From NCBI GenBank assembly GCA_002688095.1, contig NZCA01000004.1:38341-88656 (forward strand): a stretch of DNA of 50,316 bases, given 5' to 3'. The DNA is from Nanobdellota archaeon. Lineage in GTDB: Archaea > Nanobdellota > Nanobdellia > SCGC-AAA011-G17 > ARS1403. Numbering within the stretch: position 1 is the first letter of the stretch; the number at the start of each line of letters is the position of its first letter. Below are positions 6,250-13,806 of the stretch, one piece after another. The notes under the pieces are model-generated. The model did no database searches and was not told the origin of the DNA. It was given only the letters and a program-made list of their open reading frames with translations. A program made the translations under genes and the position numbers.

Positions 6250-6326
6250 TGGTGGCCTCGAGGAGATTTGAACTCCCAACCTTTCGATTATCAGTCGAAT
6301 GCTCCACCAGATTAAGCTACAAGGCC
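6250..6326 (-). tRNA. tRNA-Ile (GAU), CCA encoded
   Basis: A full cloverleaf folds on the minus strand: acceptor GGCCTTG/CGAGGCC, D stem GCTT/GAGC, anticodon stem TTCGA/TCGAA with loop CTGATAA (anticodon GAT), T stem GGGAG/CTCCT, discriminator A, then encoded CCA. The first 15 nt overlap the 3' end of the upstream LAGLIDADG gene, whose stop codon TAA lies in the D arm. The phosphatase gene begins 5 nt after the CCA. There is no intron. Confidence 0.93.
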
Positions 6327-7130
6327 ATAATAAGAATTAATGTCTGTTTTTCCTTTTAAAATGTTTCGTCTTTCAATGATATTTGTATCTGGGGGACAGA
6401 ATCCAAATTTCTTCCATACTTGATATTTAGTTAAATGTTTGGTTGAGTTGAATCCAATTTCCTTGAACCAGAGATTTAAGTTAGATAACCCGTTTAAATC
6501 CACTGTGTTAATTTTTAACTTCTTTCCTTTTCTATAGGTAATATAATTCTTTAAACTATAAAGACCGAAATGGAGTTCTTTAAGTAGGTCAACTACTGAT
6601 TTGTGCATAAATTCACTTTCCGTCGCGAAAGTAATTGCGGAGTAATAATGTTTTTGTCTATATCTCTTTTTAAAAGTTAAACAGAATTCCGTATCTGCTA
6701 AACCTTTTAAAAAATATTTTTTTATCTTTATATTCGAATTTAAAATAATTTTGGGAATTTTGCACCCTTTCTTTGATCCTAATGGCAATTTTAAAGATTT
6801 ATTAAAAAAAGTTAATATTGCTTTTGAACGAAAATATGTTTTTAAAGAAGAGTGATTTTTTCTTTTATCTAAAATTAATTTGGTTTTTTTATTGAATAAT
6901 TTCTTAAATAAAGTTCTGATAATTTTCATATGAAATTCTTCCTCATCTATTAAATGCCCAGTATATGAAATTAAATAATCAATTGTTTTTCTCTTGTACA
7001 TATTCATACTTCCATCTCCTAGGTGTAAGCCCATAAGATAAGCCAGATCAGAAGTTAATTTTGTTGGAAGTTTTATTTCATTTCGAATATCCTTTGGAGA
7101 AAATTCGACTTTAGATAAGTCCAGTTTCAT
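6312..7130 (-). CDS. LAGLIDADG homing endonuclease between tRNA-Asn and tRNA-Ile
   Basis: 272 residues with two LAGLIDADG helices, LAYLMGLHLGDGSM near residues 29-42 and YFLKGLADTEF near the middle, each followed by a basic beta-rich segment: a single-chain two-motif homing endonuclease. Acidic residues are present in both motifs (D of GDG, D of ADT). The last codons run into tRNA-Ile and the stop is in the tRNA D arm. A TATA box (GCTTATAAAG, 7151-7160) sits about 25 nt before the ATG, so it is probably leaderless. It may use the tRNA or its flank as target; that is inference. Confidence 0.82.
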   Translation of the reverse strand: MKLDLSKVEFSPKDIRNEIKLPTKLTSDLAYLMGLHLGDGSMNMYKRKTIDYLISYTGHLIDEEEFHMKIIRTLFKKLFNKKTKLILDKRKNHSSLKTYFRSKAILTFFNKSLKLPLGSKKGCKIPKIILNSNIKIKKYFLKGLADTEFCLTFKKRYRQKHYYSAITFATESEFMHKSVVDLLKELHFGLYSLKNYITYRKGKKLKINTVDLNGLSNLNLWFKEIGFNSTKHLTKYQVWKKFGFCPPDTNIIERRNILKGKTDINSYYGLVA

Positions 7131-7150
7131 GATATATTATAAGGTTTTTT

Positions 7151-7190
7151 CTTTATAAGCGCTACGCGTACGTGTCGTTTATGTCGTTTA
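7151..7190 (-). promoter_or_regulatory. Promoter with tandem repeats upstream of the LAGLIDADG gene
   Basis: Reading the minus strand, two perfect 9-nt tandem copies of TAAACGACA (7173-7181 and 7182-7190) precede an 8-nt palindrome TACGCGTA (7163-7170) and the TATA box GCTTATAAAG (7151-7160). Repeats just upstream of a TATA box are placed like an operator or activator site. No binding protein can be named. Confidence 0.5.
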
Positions 7191-7205
7191 ACATTGAGAA
7201 AAAAA

Positions 7206-7312
7206 CGCCTCGGGCAGGACTTGAACCTACGACCTTATGATTAACAGTCATATGCTCTACCTATTGCTCGGGCCGGAATACAGGACTCAAAAACCCTCTG
7301 AGCTACCGAGGC
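7206..7312 (-). tRNA. tRNA-Asn (GUU) with a D-loop intron
   Basis: After removing 34 nt (7264-7297) the RNA folds perfectly: acceptor GCCTCGG/CCGAGGC, D arm GCTC-AGTAGGTA-GAGC, anticodon stem TATGA/TCATA with loop CTGTTAA (anticodon GTT), T stem GTAGG/CCTGC, discriminator G as expected for tRNA-Asn. CCA is not encoded, unlike the neighbouring tRNA-Ile. Without removing the insertion the D loop would be far too long. Confidence 0.92.
7264..7297 (-). other. 34-nt archaeal tRNA intron in the D loop of tRNA-Asn
   Basis: In the precursor the exon GCTC pairs with an intron GAGC (4-bp central helix). It is flanked by 3-nt bulges AGA and AAT, then an intron helix GGGTT/GGCCC that includes two G-U pairs. 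Cutting each bulge after its second base gives exactly the expected mature D loop. The outer exon helix is missing, so this is a relaxed bulge-helix-bulge motif of the kind the archaeal splicing endonuclease accepts in some lineages. The position is in the D loop, after base 15, not the usual 37/38. Confidence 0.85.
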
Positions 7313-7388
7313 TTAATTAAAGAACTAAATATTTTAGGTTAAAAAGCTTTCCCTATAAGAAACTGCTTTTATTCAGAAAGAAGGGGAT

Positions 7389-8449: not shown

Positions 8450-8505
8450 TCTAAGAAATCTTCAGATTTTATTTTTTCTGGAAGGTAAGTATCTGTAATG
8501 AAACT
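8446..8505 (-). pseudogene. Displaced 3' tail of the topoisomerase VI-A gene
   Basis: On the minus strand the codons read SFITDTYLPEKIKSEDFLD and then stop. The intact topoisomerase VI-A gene ends SFISEKYLPEKIKNKDFID and then stop, 14 of 19 identical by eye. Upstream of this fragment the frame soon closes. It is therefore a detached duplicate of the gene's end, now separated from the working gene by the LAGLIDADG gene at 8546-9658. The two copies differ at many third positions, so they were not made by a recent local duplication; one may come from another species. Confidence 0.75.
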
Positions 8506-8545
8506 GGGGACAATCTATTTAAAGATTAAAGTATATAAAGATACC

Positions 8546-9658
8546 ATGAAAATCAATACATTAAAGCTTGTTCCTGAAGATTGGATTATTAAAGACCTTG
8601 GCAAAAATATAGAATTATGTTACAAAGCAACAAAGGGGAAAGGTCCAAAACCATTCATTTTTCCAAAATACATCCAAATAGATGAAAAATTTATAGAAGG
8701 AATTGGATTATTTTTGGGAGATAGTGATCTAAATAGAAAAGAAAAAAACCATATTACCTACTGTTCTAAAGATAAGGACATTGCAAATCATGCTTTAAAT
8801 TTTTTAAAAAAATATTTTTTTATAGATCTTAAAGATATTACTTTTACAGTCCAATATAGACAAGAGAATAAAGGATTAAAAGAAGAATGGTCAGATTATT
8901 TGGATATTCCTAAAGAAAAAATCCTAACAAGATTTTCAGATAGACATGGAAATGAGTGTATTCATATTCAGGTTAATGGTGCCGTTTTTAGAAAAATGTT
9001 TGAAATTATTATAGAGAATTTACTTAAGATGGATTTTATGGGCAATCCTCTGCTGAGAAGATCTATTTTAAGAGGTTTATTTGCTGCAGAAGGGAATATT
9101 GGAATTGATTATAAAGAAAAGAAAGACTATGTCTCTCAAATTACTTTTGATTTACATAGAAAAGAAACGCATATAGAAAAAATAATTACTAGTTGCTTAG
9201 ATGTAGAGGATGTAAGGCACAAAGTAGTAAATCGGGAGAATAGGAATAGTAAGGAGATTATAATTTTCAACTGGAATAATTATAAAAAATTCTGGGAAAT
9301 AAGATTATTTGATCTTTGTCAAAGAAAAAAGAATAAATTCTTGGATATTATGCATAATCTTAAGGTCTCTTGTTTTTTAGAAGATGGTTATCGTAAAGAA
9401 TTGTTTAACCAGCAGAAATTAAAACAGAAAGAAATTGCTAAAATGATTAATTCTTGGCAAGGTAATGTTTCTAAGACCTTGAAGGGCGAACTTGGGATTG
9501 TTATGGAAGGATTTTGTAAACTGAATAAAAGGGTAAATTACCCTAATCCCTTGGATAAACTCATTAAGATTAATATTGGAAGTTTAACTACTTTAGAGAA
9601 TAATGAAGAAAATAAACAATTTATTGAATATTTATACCGGGTAAAATCTAATCAATAA
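8546..9658 (+). CDS. LAGLIDADG homing endonuclease inserted at the 3' end of topoisomerase VI-A
   Basis: 370 residues from ATG 8546. Two LAGLIDADG helices are seen, FIEGIGLFLGDSDL and ILRGLFAAEGNI; the acidic residues D and E are kept. The C-terminal ~100 residues include an HTH-like segment (LKQKEIAKMINSWQGNVSKT). An upstream ATG at 8498 exists, but CTATTTAAAG at 8515-8524 is well placed as a TATA box for a leaderless start at 8546, and 8498 lies inside the displaced topoisomerase tail. The stop overlaps the converging topoisomerase VI-A stop by 11 nt. This arrangement fits a mobile gene that brought a replacement tail with it. Confidence 0.85.
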   Translation: MKINTLKLVPEDWIIKDLGKNIELCYKATKGKGPKPFIFPKYIQIDEKFIEGIGLFLGDSDLNRKEKNHITYCSKDKDIANHALNFLKKYFFIDLKDITFTVQYRQENKGLKEEWSDYLDIPKEKILTRFSDRHGNECIHIQVNGAVFRKMFEIIIENLLKMDFMGNPLLRRSILRGLFAAEGNIGIDYKEKKDYVSQITFDLHRKETHIEKIITSCLDVEDVRHKVVNRENRNSKEIIIFNWNNYKKFWEIRLFDLCQRKKNKFLDIMHNLKVSCFLEDGYRKELFNQQKLKQKEIAKMINSWQGNVSKTLKGELGIVMEGFCKLNKRVNYPNPLDKLIKINIGSLTTLENNEENKQFIEYLYRVKSNQ

Positions 9659-10736
9659 AGTCCTTGTTTTTGATCTTTTCAGGGAGGTATTTTTCAGAGA
9701 TAAAACTTATTCCCTTGCTACTTAAGGCTTGTATCTCTGCCTTAGCACCCAGTTTTTTAAGTGCTGCAAATTCTTTTTGCCATGCTTTGTTATCTTTAAA
9801 CCAGGCATAATTTTGAATTTGTTTTAATCTACTTAGATCCGTATCTTTGAATTTAATTAAATGCTTTTCAAGTTTGTATTTTTCAATATCATTTGTAGTT
9901 ATTCCTAAGAATCTAACAGAAGGAATAGCCATTTTTCCTGATATGTGGGCCAAGTTAATTGAGCCAAAGCGAATAACAGAATAGATGTAATGTCCCCAAC
10001 TGTCAAGGTCAGTCAATACATAAATAGGTAACTTATGCTCTTTAGTTAATCTTTGGAGTAATCTTCGTATACCTCTTGTAGTTTGACCTTGGGAAGACAT
10101 GATGATACAATTTTGTTTTTCCCAGAATTTATCTTCATGTAATCTTTCCCATACTGCAGCCTTCTCCATATATAAAATATATTTGGCTGTGACTTTTTTG
10201 AATTTAATATCTTCAACATTAGATGGAATGGACCAACCTCCAGAACCTAATTTAGACCAATCAATTGTATCCCCTTTATCTTCAATTACAACTTTTCCCG
10301 CAACAGAACCGTTTTTATTGGCATTTACATTTAATTGTTCCCGGCTTTGATCTGTTACTAATTCTAAATCTTCTATAACGGAATCAGATTCTGGTTGGTC
10401 ATCTACAAGATTTACTTTAGTTCCTGGAATTGTTCTCTTAGCCATGTAAAAAACATCCCTTAGAGAAGCGTGTTTACCATCTTTGATTAAATTATGACTA
10501 ATGGCGGCTACTTCTAAAGTTTGTAAGAATTTTTTAGCGTGAGCAATATGGAAAAAATATCTAGCAGAGACTTTACTACCTAATTGAACTGTTTTGGTTT
10601 TTTCATCAAATTTTATATTAGATAAGGCCCTTATCGGTATGGCTATCTCAGGGTTTTTCCCTTTCTTAATTTGTTTTACAATATCCTTACCTAGATTTTC
10701 TAGAGCCAAGAGTTGTTTGTTTTTCCCTTTTGCCAT
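9648..10736 (-). CDS. top6A: DNA topoisomerase VI subunit A
   Basis: The Spo11-like strand-cutting subunit of the type IIB topoisomerase. 362 residues, normal length. The catalytic tyrosine is Y97 in SLRDVFYMAKRT. The Toprim domain shows the glutamate in MEKAAVWERL and the acidic motif DLDSWGHYI. Translation starts inside the end of subunit B (50-nt overlap in another frame), so the two are translationally coupled. The last ~19 codons are duplicated on the far side of the LAGLIDADG gene, so the present C-terminus may be a replacement. The nearby sequence is otherwise continuous, so the enzyme should be functional. Confidence 0.95.
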   Translation of the reverse strand: MAKGKNKQLLALENLGKDIVKQIKKGKNPEIAIPIRALSNIKFDEKTKTVQLGSKVSARYFFHIAHAKKFLQTLEVAAISHNLIKDGKHASLRDVFYMAKRTIPGTKVNLVDDQPESDSVIEDLELVTDQSREQLNVNANKNGSVAGKVVIEDKGDTIDWSKLGSGGWSIPSNVEDIKFKKVTAKYILYMEKAAVWERLHEDKFWEKQNCIIMSSQGQTTRGIRRLLQRLTKEHKLPIYVLTDLDSWGHYIYSVIRFGSINLAHISGKMAIPSVRFLGITTNDIEKYKLEKHLIKFKDTDLSRLKQIQNYAWFKDNKAWQKEFAALKKLGAKAEIQALSSKGISFISEKYLPEKIKNKDFID

Positions 10737-13700
10737 GTTTTTTTACCTTTTTAGTGGAACTTGTCCTCTTTACTTCAGTTTTTTTTGTTGGTTTTTTAAT
10801 TTCTTTCTTTTCTTTGTGAACGTTCTTTTTTTGCGGGGTTGAAAGGGGCGCATCCCCTTCTTCTTCTGGAATTAAATCCTTTAAAGATTTTTTTAAGGTT
10901 TTAGTTAATTTAGATGTTATTTGGTCTTTATTTTCTTTAGTTAGTCTATTTAAAGAGGAAGCTATTTCGGGTATAAATTTTTCAAATAATCCTGCTCTTT
11001 CTTTTTGTTCTCTAACCCTAACTGTTTTTCTAATATGGGAGGCTAATTTTCTACCACATTCTTGAATAGCTAATTTAATTTGTTTAATAATTTCGGGATA
11101 ATGGGCTATGGCTTCTTTAGATTCGGATGTAAACGGAACCCAAACAGAGGCCATGTGAATTACAAGCAAAACAGGTCCTACAGGTAGTGCACCCCGTGAT
11201 TGAGACATATTATAGTTTCTCCAATTTGTTTCAATTACCGATTTTGTTATAGCGCAGGCGGATTGTTGATATTGCAAAGGAACCCTATTAGCAAATCTAA
11301 GCAAGGTCATTGATTTATCAGAAGGTATTTGTCCTCCAAATGCAATGCAAGTTTCTATTTGAAAGGGGTTACCCCTATAAACAGAAGCTGGACGAGTTAC
11401 GGAAGCAAAAAATTCTCCGGGGATTTCTTTTTCCATAGAAGTTTGAAGAGCTTCAGCTCCGATTGGAGATAAACAATTAGTAGGAGGGGCAATTAATTTG
11501 GTGTTTTGAATAGCTTTGTAAAGTTTTTCAGCGTGATCCCTATCTAACTCTTTTGGTTTCATGGAAGGTTTGAATTCTATCTGTTCACAAACTTTTTTTA
11601 CCGTTTTAGAACTTAGTCTTATGAATTCTTTTGTTAAGAAAGCAGTTAATGTTTTAGCAGAAGTAGATTTTAACATGGAAATAAAAATGCCTAGTTCAAT
11701 TCCATGAGGGTGAGGTTTAATTTCCTTAGGTTCTACAGGTAATTGTTCAGAAGCTCTTGGGTAATGGACACGTTTGTTTTCAGGATCTATATAAGTTAAT
11801 TCTGCATGAGGATTAGCAATAACAGTCTGTTTTAGATATTCATCTACACCTCTAATGCCTTTTTGATAGATAGCTTCCATCTCTATTTCTACATTTATTC
11901 CATGGTCTTGATCCCAAGGGACTTCTTTATCTACAAGAATTTCTGGTTCGTTGTTTTTAGTATCTATTTTTAATTCATAATAATGGGCGGGTTTGTTTTT
12001 TCCTATTTTAGAAATAATTCTAGCTGGTTTTCCAGTTGTTAATTGACCGTATAAAACAGCTGCAGAGATTCCAATACCCTGTTGTCCTCTTGTGTTGTGA
12101 CAAGAAATACCTCCAAGGCCCCCTACAAAATTCTCACAATAAGGAACAGATAAATCGTAAACGTGCTCGTAACCTTTTTTGATTATTTCAATTTCTTTTA
12201 CTTGTAATAAGGATAAATCTTTGTGTATTAGTTGTTGAACAATTCTTTTAGATCCAGGATTAATATTGCATGAAAATTCTTTTGATTTTTCAATATCTTT
12301 TCCATATACATTAATGGAGTAAGCTTTAGATGGAAACTTTCCTAGTCCTTTGTTAATTCTTGGTTGTATAGAGGCCAGAACTCCTTGCATTAGCCAAAGG
12401 TAAAGAGTTTCATTAGCTAATTTTTTACTTGAAGTAGTTAGCATTAATTGATTTCTATTTTTTGTATTATGTCCATCTCCTTGATACAATGCATCTAAGA
12501 AGGTTTGTCTTAATTCTTGATTTGTTCTAAATATGAATTCTGGAATCTTTTTGTTTTTAGCACCCTTTCCGCAGAGATTTTTTATTAATTTTGTAAAAAT
12601 ATTTCCAAATAATTTAATTCTTATGATGGTTTCTCGTGGTTCAATGGTGAAGTTTAGCCCGAAGATTCTTGAGAAATTTATTATTTCATTAACGAATTTA
12701 TCTTCCTGCTTTCCAAATGTTAATCCTATCTGTCTTTTATCAAAATGTCCTTCTGCTACATAAAATCCTAGAAATTTGATAAATTCCTTGGTTAGGGGAA
12801 GTGTGATTGGGACTGTTGTTTCTTTTCCGTGTTGATAGGTTTTTATTATACAATCCTTTACTTTATTTTTTAAGTTTAATTTGTAAATAAGATGGAGTGG
12901 TAAAAATTGCTTTGTCTCGTATTGTTTAAGGCTGTCATCTAAAATATCTATTCCTTTAATTCTATAGAATCTTCTGCTCTTTGAAGTTTTTTTATGAATA
13001 ATTTCTGCTTTTTCTTTGATATTTCTTATTACTTTTTCTGGAATGTTATAAACGTACATCCAATTCTTTTCTATATCTTTTAGTGAGATATAATCTAAGA
13101 TGTTTATTTCTTTTAGATTCTCTATTTCAGGAAGTTTTGAAGGAACTAAAAGTTTGTCTCCTTGTTTTAATTTTCTAGCTTCTACTTCTTTTATGATTCC
13201 ATTTTCAGAGGTAAATAAACTATGACAACCCGTTACTTTTATTTCTCTATTTGTAGCTAATTTTACTTTTATAATTTCATTTCTTCTTTTATGTTTAATT
13301 ACTTGGCTAACTTTCCTAAATTTATAAGAATGGGTACTTTTGTCAAAACAAGGGACTTTTAGATCAAATACTTCTTTTTCTCCTTCTTGGTTTTTAATAT
13401 AATTAGCGATTAAGTCTCCGATTGGTGAGAGTTCTATTTTTCCTTTTCTCTTTACCATAACTGGTTCGTCGTGTGTTAGAGACTGTGCTAGTTTGAAAAA
13501 TTTAGAACCATATAATAATCTGGCAAAGATAAAGGGGATTTGTTTTTTTACAATTCCCGGCCCGTTGTCAGTTATGGAAATCAAGTATCTTTCTTCTTGT
13601 AATTGTTTTATTTTTACTTTAATTATGGGAAGAATCTTGGCTTCTTGGCAAGCATCTAAAGAATTATCTACTGCTTCTTTTATAGTGGTTAATAAGGCTC

Positions 13701-13806
13701 TTCGAGGATTGTCAAAACCCAATAAATGTCTGTTTCTAGTGAAGAATTCTGAGACTGAAATTGACTGTTGCTTTTTTGCTAATTCGTCTGCAATAGTTTT
13801 TGCCAT
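10687..13806 (-). CDS. top6B: DNA topoisomerase VI subunit B, interrupted by an intein
   Basis: ATPase subunit of topoisomerase VI. The precursor is 1039 residues; after removal of a 463-residue intein the protein is 576 residues, typical for the family. GHKL ATPase motifs: EAVDNSLDA (about 44-52), DNGPGI (80-85), and the lid GSKFFKLAQ joined to TRGQQGIGISAAVLYGQL across the intein. The transducer domain follows, then a Lys/Arg-rich tail of about 70 residues that overlaps subunit A's start. ATP binding dimerises B and drives strand passage by A. Expression of active enzyme depends on splicing. Confidence 0.96.
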   Translation of the reverse strand: MAKTIADELAKKQQSISVSEFFTRNRHLLGFDNPRRALLTTIKEAVDNSLDACQEAKILPIIKVKIKQLQEERYLISITDNGPGIVKKQIPFIFARLLYGSKFFKLAQSLTHDEPVMVKRKGKIELSPIGDLIANYIKNQEGEKEVFDLKVPCFDKSTHSYKFRKVSQVIKHKRRNEIIKVKLATNREIKVTGCHSLFTSENGIIKEVEARKLKQGDKLLVPSKLPEIENLKEINILDYISLKDIEKNWMYVYNIPEKVIRNIKEKAEIIHKKTSKSRRFYRIKGIDILDDSLKQYETKQFLPLHLIYKLNLKNKVKDCIIKTYQHGKETTVPITLPLTKEFIKFLGFYVAEGHFDKRQIGLTFGKQEDKFVNEIINFSRIFGLNFTIEPRETIIRIKLFGNIFTKLIKNLCGKGAKNKKIPEFIFRTNQELRQTFLDALYQGDGHNTKNRNQLMLTTSSKKLANETLYLWLMQGVLASIQPRINKGLGKFPSKAYSINVYGKDIEKSKEFSCNINPGSKRIVQQLIHKDLSLLQVKEIEIIKKGYEHVYDLSVPYCENFVGGLGGISCHNTRGQQGIGISAAVLYGQLTTGKPARIISKIGKNKPAHYYELKIDTKNNEPEILVDKEVPWDQDHGINVEIEMEAIYQKGIRGVDEYLKQTVIANPHAELTYIDPENKRVHYPRASEQLPVEPKEIKPHPHGIELGIFISMLKSTSAKTLTAFLTKEFIRLSSKTVKKVCEQIEFKPSMKPKELDRDHAEKLYKAIQNTKLIAPPTNCLSPIGAEALQTSMEKEIPGEFFASVTRPASVYRGNPFQIETCIAFGGQIPSDKSMTLLRFANRVPLQYQQSACAITKSVIETNWRNYNMSQSRGALPVGPVLLVIHMASVWVPFTSESKEAIAHYPEIIKQIKLAIQECGRKLASHIRKTVRVREQKERAGLFEKFIPEIASSLNRLTKENKDQITSKLTKTLKKSLKDLIPEEEGDAPLSTPQKKNVHKEKKEIKKPTKKTEVKRTSSTKKVKKHGKREKQTTLGSRKSR
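12094..13482 (-). mobile_element. Intein with LAGLIDADG endonuclease in topoisomerase VI-B
   Basis: Residues 109-571 of the precursor. It begins SLTHDEPV with Ser as first nucleophile, has a block-B-like TGCHSLF, two LAGLIDADG helices (LGFYVAEGH about 346-354; FLDALYQGDG about 436-445), block F YEHVYDLSVP and ends ISCHN with Thr as the +1 extein residue. All residues needed for splicing are present. It is inserted in the ATP-lid motif between KLAQ and TRGQQG, a strictly conserved site. It has both splicing and nuclease blocks, so it is a complete mobile intein by inspection. Confidence 0.93.

Follow-up and report, generated by a model that had tools for sequence, protein, structure and literature searches.

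A relaxed 15/16 intron in the tRNA-Asn gene of a Nanobdellota archaeon and its probable processing by an α-type splicing endonuclease

The window, a stretch of 50,316 nt from the genome of a Nanobdellota archaeon, carries a tRNA-Asn(GTT) gene with a precursor length of 107 nt (Table 1). The extent of the gene and of the 34-nt insert in its D-arm had been predicted exactly, and excision of the insert restores a full cloverleaf. The mature tRNA, read directly from the minus strand, is GCCTCGG TA GCTC-AGTAGGTA-GAGC A TATGA-CTGTTAA-TCATA AGGTC GTAGG-TTCAAGT-CCTGC CCGAGGC. Every stem is paired, with one G-U pair in the T stem, and the D-loop has 8 nt once the intron is removed. The spliced form reached a cloverleaf score of 30.5 in the scoring script, which is among the best tRNA scores of the genome. 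ARAGORN missed the locus in a default run and misread it as tRNA-Ser with the intron setting; the match of the Rfam tRNA model covers only positions 9–63. The gene is preceded by a putative BRE/TATA-like promoter, GGAAAGCTTTTTAAC, and a similar box lies upstream of tRNA-Asn in Woesearchaeota relatives. The tRNA genes were catalogued across all contigs of the host genome (a multi-contig draft of 605 kb in 15 contigs, 81% complete). A second intact tRNA-Asn gene, named in the original prediction as a sign that this copy might be a pseudogene, was not found in this assembly.

Table 1. Features of the tRNA-Asn locus and related features elsewhere in the host genome (G000).
Feature	Position	Strand	Basis or remark
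tRNA-Asn(GTT) gene	7206..7312	(-)	5' end 7312; discriminator G73 at 7206; no CCA encoded; sequence, cloverleaf score, partial Rfam match of 34.3 bits
Anticodon GTT	7243..7245	(-)	cloverleaf model
34-nt intron, tRNA positions 15/16, AG^AGGG...GAGCAA^T	7264..7297	(-)	excision scoring; identical junctions in 21 other genomes
GCTC, D-stem 5' strand and, in the precursor, central helix 5' strand	7300..7303	(-)	scoring, minimum-free-energy fold
5' bulge AGA, predicted cut after AG (7298^7297)	7297..7299	(-)	scoring
Inner helix h', 5' strand GGGTT	7292..7296	(-)	minimum-free-energy fold; covarying position in relatives
Inner helix h', 3' strand GGCCC	7270..7274	(-)	minimum-free-energy fold; relatives
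Intronic GAGC, copy of D-stem 3' strand and central helix 3' strand	7266..7269	(-)	scoring, minimum-free-energy fold
3' bulge AAT, predicted cut after AA (7264^7263)	7263..7265	(-)	scoring; outer side open
Exonic GAGC, D-stem 3' strand	7254..7257	(-)	partner of 7300–7303 only once spliced
Putative promoter, BRE/TATA-like	7338..7352	(-)	consensus match only
Putative terminator, seven T in a row immediately 3' of tRNA-Asn	7199..7205	(-)	sequence; inference
LAGLIDADG-like ORF between tRNA-Asn and tRNA-Ile	6312-7130	(-)	
tRNA-Asn and tRNA-Ile(GAT) tandem	6253-7312		
Topoisomerase VI subunit B with intein	10687-13806	(-)	Pfam intein splicing and LAGLIDADG domains
Second LAGLIDADG-like ORF in the window	8498-9658	(+)	
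Other free-standing LAGLIDADG-like members	C7:35590-36300, C2:9577-10647, C9:64268-65143		
tRNA-Lys(CTT), introns 30/31 and 37/38	C14:20075-20176	(+)	model
CAT tRNA, introns 15/16, 29/30 and 37/38	C14:15112-14947	(-)	model; A1-T72; C33 for T33

The precursor contains a bulge-helix-bulge (BHB) arrangement, in which a 4-bp central helix, GCTC/GAGC, lies between 3-nt bulges. Scoring and an unconstrained minimum-free-energy fold of the unspliced RNA both reproduced this predicted element, the latter with z = −2.8. The inner helix has 5 bp and the outer helix 0 bp, and the intron is therefore of the relaxed HBh' subtype and not of the strict hBHBh' type; the predicted lack of an outer helix and the location outside 37/38 thus proved correct. 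Shuffled introns gave a perfect central helix with an in-register inner helix of at least 3 pairs at a frequency of 3e-4, and of at least 5 pairs at 5e-5. Of the 58 excisions compatible with a good cloverleaf, the one described here has the top BHB score. No group I or group II catalytic core was found in the 34-nt intron, and the only Rfam match in the window is the tRNA. The non-canonical introns of Thermoproteales, Nanoarchaeota and Thaumarchaeota, including the HBh' introns of Marck and Grosjean, likewise combine a 4-bp helix and 3-nt bulges with a cut after the second bulge base; in the HBh' introns one flanking helix is also absent, the cloverleaf is restored and several introns can occur per gene. 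One review names the non-canonical sites 20/21, 22/23, 25/26, 29/30, 30/31, 45/46, 53/54, 56/57 and 59/60, in a list that ends in “etc.” (PMC4090602) and does not include 15/16; here, DPANN-type archaea share 15/16 as a conserved site in tRNA-Asn. The intron is real and conserved, and the relaxed archaeal intron type itself is already known.

The distribution of the intron was studied in 84,980 species genomes with a pattern in which the D-stem and D-loop letters were fixed and the isotype was left free. The architecture was matched in 21 other genomes, all of them in tRNA-Asn as judged by the CTGTTA anticodon loop; since the pattern favours AGTNGGTA D-loops, this specificity for Asn holds only among AGTNGGTA-type tRNAs. 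The matching records are labelled Pacearchaeota, Woesearchaeota, Aenigmatarchaeota, Diapherotrites or Forterrea, Nanoarchaeota, or archaea, and all are DPANN-type by title or kinship. The intron bodies vary and are 14–40 nt long. Nevertheless, complementarity at inner pairs 1 to 4 is kept in 22/22, 20/22, 19/21 and 18/18 distinct sequences, respectively, with GC, CG, AT and TA types all occurring. Column shuffles, which leave relatedness in, equalled this complementarity in at most 3 of 20,000 cases. The distribution is patchy: a strict search found the intron in 7/103 genomes of the order, and a sample drawn from the phylum had it in 9/371. Intronless relatives, suggested as a comparison in the original prediction, do exist, as nine genomes of the order and G003 have a tRNA-Asn with no intron between the D-stem and the anticodon. 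The patchiness may reflect either an ancient intron that was lost many times or its transfer between lineages. In the tRNA-Asn genes of three relatives (L104, L116 and L108), the D-loop exon together with the last bases of the intron, AATAGGTA, is complementary to TACCTATT or TATCTATT, the stretch at and just 3' of the anticodon, and a long-range pairing between the borders of two introns is possible.

Introns of the other tRNAs of the genome were predicted from sequence by the same scoring script. Canonical 37/38 introns were modelled in tRNAs Arg(TCT), Met, Gly(CCC), Thr(GGT), His, Val and Lys. Non-canonical introns were modelled in tRNA-Gln(TTG), at 15/16 and at a second D-arm site, and D-arm introns in tRNA-Pro(TGG) and tRNA-Val(TAC). 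The 15/16 introns of tRNA-Gln(TTG) and of the CAT tRNA share the AG^A...AA^ borders with tRNA-Asn, and that of tRNA-Gln(TTG) sits in a D-stem different from that of tRNA-Asn. The CAT tRNA with its A1-T72 pair is probably the initiator. The position 30/31 intron of tRNA-Lys(CTT) corresponds to the split site of tRNA-Lys(CUU) in N. equitans and Staphylothermus (PMC3218864). Among the relatives, G029 has three introns in tRNA-Asn (15/16, 37/38 and 53/54), and the tRNA-Asn of G040 (L103, start ~4898, plus strand) was modelled with four, at 15/16, in the anticodon stem, at 37/38 and in the T-loop. Each of the four has a central helix with bulges, one helix containing a mismatch, and the mature cloverleaf is perfect. 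As modelled, this gene exceeds the stated maximum of three introns per archaeal tRNA gene (PMC8450103, PMC4033280). A five-intron reading of the tRNA-Asn of G069, where the variable-region junction did not resolve, is not claimed. No literature specific to tRNA introns of DPANN archaea was found, subscription papers being outside the scope of the search.

Very probably, the locus is a working tRNA-Asn gene, and its 15/16 intron belongs to the archaeal, protein-spliced (EndA-type) class. This follows from the exact cloverleaf, the best BHB score, the spontaneous fold, the occurrence in 21 other genomes with covariation, the intronless orthologues, the status of the gene as the sole tRNA-Asn gene found, the presence of EndA and RtcB genes in the host genome and the like-bordered 15/16 introns in the same genome. 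In the pathway that we infer, GCTC of the D-stem in the expressed precursor would pair with the intronic GAGC copy, creating the central helix, two bulges and the inner helix. EndA would then cut after AG and after AA, RtcB would ligate the exons, and in the ligated tRNA GCTC would re-pair with the exonic GAGC to give the normal D-stem. If the tRNAs mature, the splicing enzyme must be permissive, because the intron is of relaxed type, no other Asn gene was found, and further tRNAs carry non-canonical introns. To this extent the predicted broad specificity stands; the loop determinants known to confer it were not found.

A single EndA gene was found in the host genome with PF01974, on contig C2. 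It encodes a single-domain α-type protein of 200 aa, which is not what the predicted broad specificity would lead one to expect. Residues Y136, H146 and K177 are invariant in an alignment of 12 sequences of relatives, and we take them to be the Tyr/His/Lys catalytic triad, with roles as in M. jannaschii EndA. With M. jannaschii EndA the host protein gives a gapless alignment of 148 residues; among solved structures, its best match is the N. equitans α chain. Profile alignment located, in the N-terminal domain of the S. tokodaii protein (2cv8), an insertion of 11 residues that follows Tyr-Gly and that we assign, from the alignment, to the region of the Crenarchaea-specific loop; this insertion is absent from host EndA. 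The ARMAN-specific loop is also absent by profile alignment, the host having Y59-V60 at that place with no insertion, in a single unit. In the order, PF01974 matched in 96/103 genomes, 93 of these 96 having just one match. Three genomes have an extra match: in two it is weak, and the third, with two strong matches, is listed as 6% contaminated. Seven genomes of the order, some listed as at least 90% complete, were unmatched; assembly gaps are the likely cause, since one of them, G029, bears introns.

Broad specificity has been tied to the Crenarchaea-specific loop of (αβ)2 enzymes or the ARMAN-specific loop of ε2 enzymes (PMC12397907, PMC6379350), whereas loop-less α4 EndA is reported to cut strict BHB only (PMC4033280, PMC6379350). 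The M. jannaschii α4 enzyme (1A79), for which strict specificity is reported in the same papers, is likewise a single α-type chain of ~180–200 aa with conserved Tyr/His/Lys positions and no loop insertion, yet the host genome has HBh' introns at several sites. The ARMAN-2 ε2 EndA (4FZ2), a broad enzyme of another ultra-small archaeal lineage, is a three-unit chain of 390 aa with extra residues around Y160-K161, the ARMAN-specific loop, in contrast to the one 200-aa unit of the host. The strict-BHB reports argue against a loop-less α4 enzyme here, unless that enzyme has a different specificity or is joined by a diverged subunit. There are two possibilities: the loop-less α-type EndA of the order may have a broader specificity than the related euryarchaeal enzymes, or a second subunit may have diverged too far to be detected. 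With limited confidence we favour the first, a single-gene α-type (α4) EndA that would accept HBh' introns despite missing the known specificity-broadening loops, as the most likely cutter; this is the least certain step of the pathway.

The principal alternative, which we consider less likely, is a real intron cut by a heteromeric EndA whose broad specificity comes from a diverged β subunit, as in Nanoarchaeum equitans or Crenarchaeota. The closest solved relative of the host α chain is indeed N. equitans α (3IEY), which comes from the broad (αβ)2 enzyme of another reduced archaeon, and with the genome 81% complete such a subunit could be encoded in the missing part. However, the second subunit that N. 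equitans possesses was not found in the host's order by PF01974, the single match per genome extending to genomes listed as 100% complete. A profile built from the EndAs of the order does detect the N. equitans β subunit NEQ261 (E 3e-17), so a similar chain would have appeared; crenarchaeal β chains are too diverged for the PDB profile search, and a subunit of that type might have escaped.

Other readings concern the intron itself. An excision in a shifted register, e.g., of 32 nt (GA^GGG...GCA^ATA), would leave a D-loop of 10 nt and a cloverleaf that is just as good, but its central helix is weaker (3/4 pairs), the 34-nt register is common to the relatives, and the AGTNGGTA loop that the latter leaves also occurs in intronless relatives; this register is very unlikely. 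Still less probable is a disrupted pseudogene with tRNA-Asn supplied by another gene. Such a gene could reside in the part of the genome missing from the 605-kb assembly, where none was detected, but the stems are intact, the promoter-like box and putative terminator are in place, and insertions at the same site show compensatory pairing in many species. An assembly or sequencing artefact, conceivable in a draft of 15 contigs, is refuted in practice by the same architecture in independent records of other species, and the covariation of the relatives' inner helices rules out assembly error as well as arguing against a pseudogene.

The positions of tRNA introns are considered to have co-evolved with EndA architecture, narrow α4 or α'2 enzymes being associated with one strict 37/38 intron and broad special-loop enzymes with scattered relaxed introns. 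The host's order seems to break this rule. Tentatively, the DPANN-type archaea of the order may perform relaxed multi-site splicing (15/16, 30/31, 37/38 and the T-loop, with up to four or more introns in a single tRNA-Asn gene) by a loop-less single-gene α-type EndA; this would represent a third, undescribed basis of broad specificity, and the 15/16 intron of tRNA-Asn would be an old conserved element. The window supplies a small testable substrate of 107 nt and the genome a small enzyme of 200 aa. The recurrence of one site in the same isotype in several groups also raises the question of whether the origin of non-canonical introns can be ancient and not recent.

The LAGLIDADG-like ORF next to tRNA-Asn is a matter separate from the intron. 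A role of this ORF as the driver of the 15/16 intron is unsupported, as its relatives in the host genome adjoin mostly intronless tRNAs, and G004 and G005, which have the D-arm intron, lack a copy at the site. Each of the four free-standing members of the family in the host genome lies immediately 5' of a tRNA gene of the same orientation (hypergeometric 1.3e-6 with the window copy left out). They end −15 to +37 nt from the start of the tRNA; three of them extend into it and use a stop codon formed there. Many relatives in the order (L130–L158) also have a LAGLIDADG-like gene next to a tRNA, often in a tRNA-ORF-tRNA arrangement. The tandem of tRNA-Asn and tRNA-Ile(GAT) is apparently ancestral (L064, L063 and L056 compared with L054, L055 and L057). 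It is interrupted by the ORF in G000, G038 and G001, and G002, G003 and G005 lack the ORF; in G029, the tRNA after the ORF may be an intron-containing tRNA-Ile. The window also contains a topoisomerase VI subunit B gene with an intein, and a second LAGLIDADG-like ORF lies nearby.
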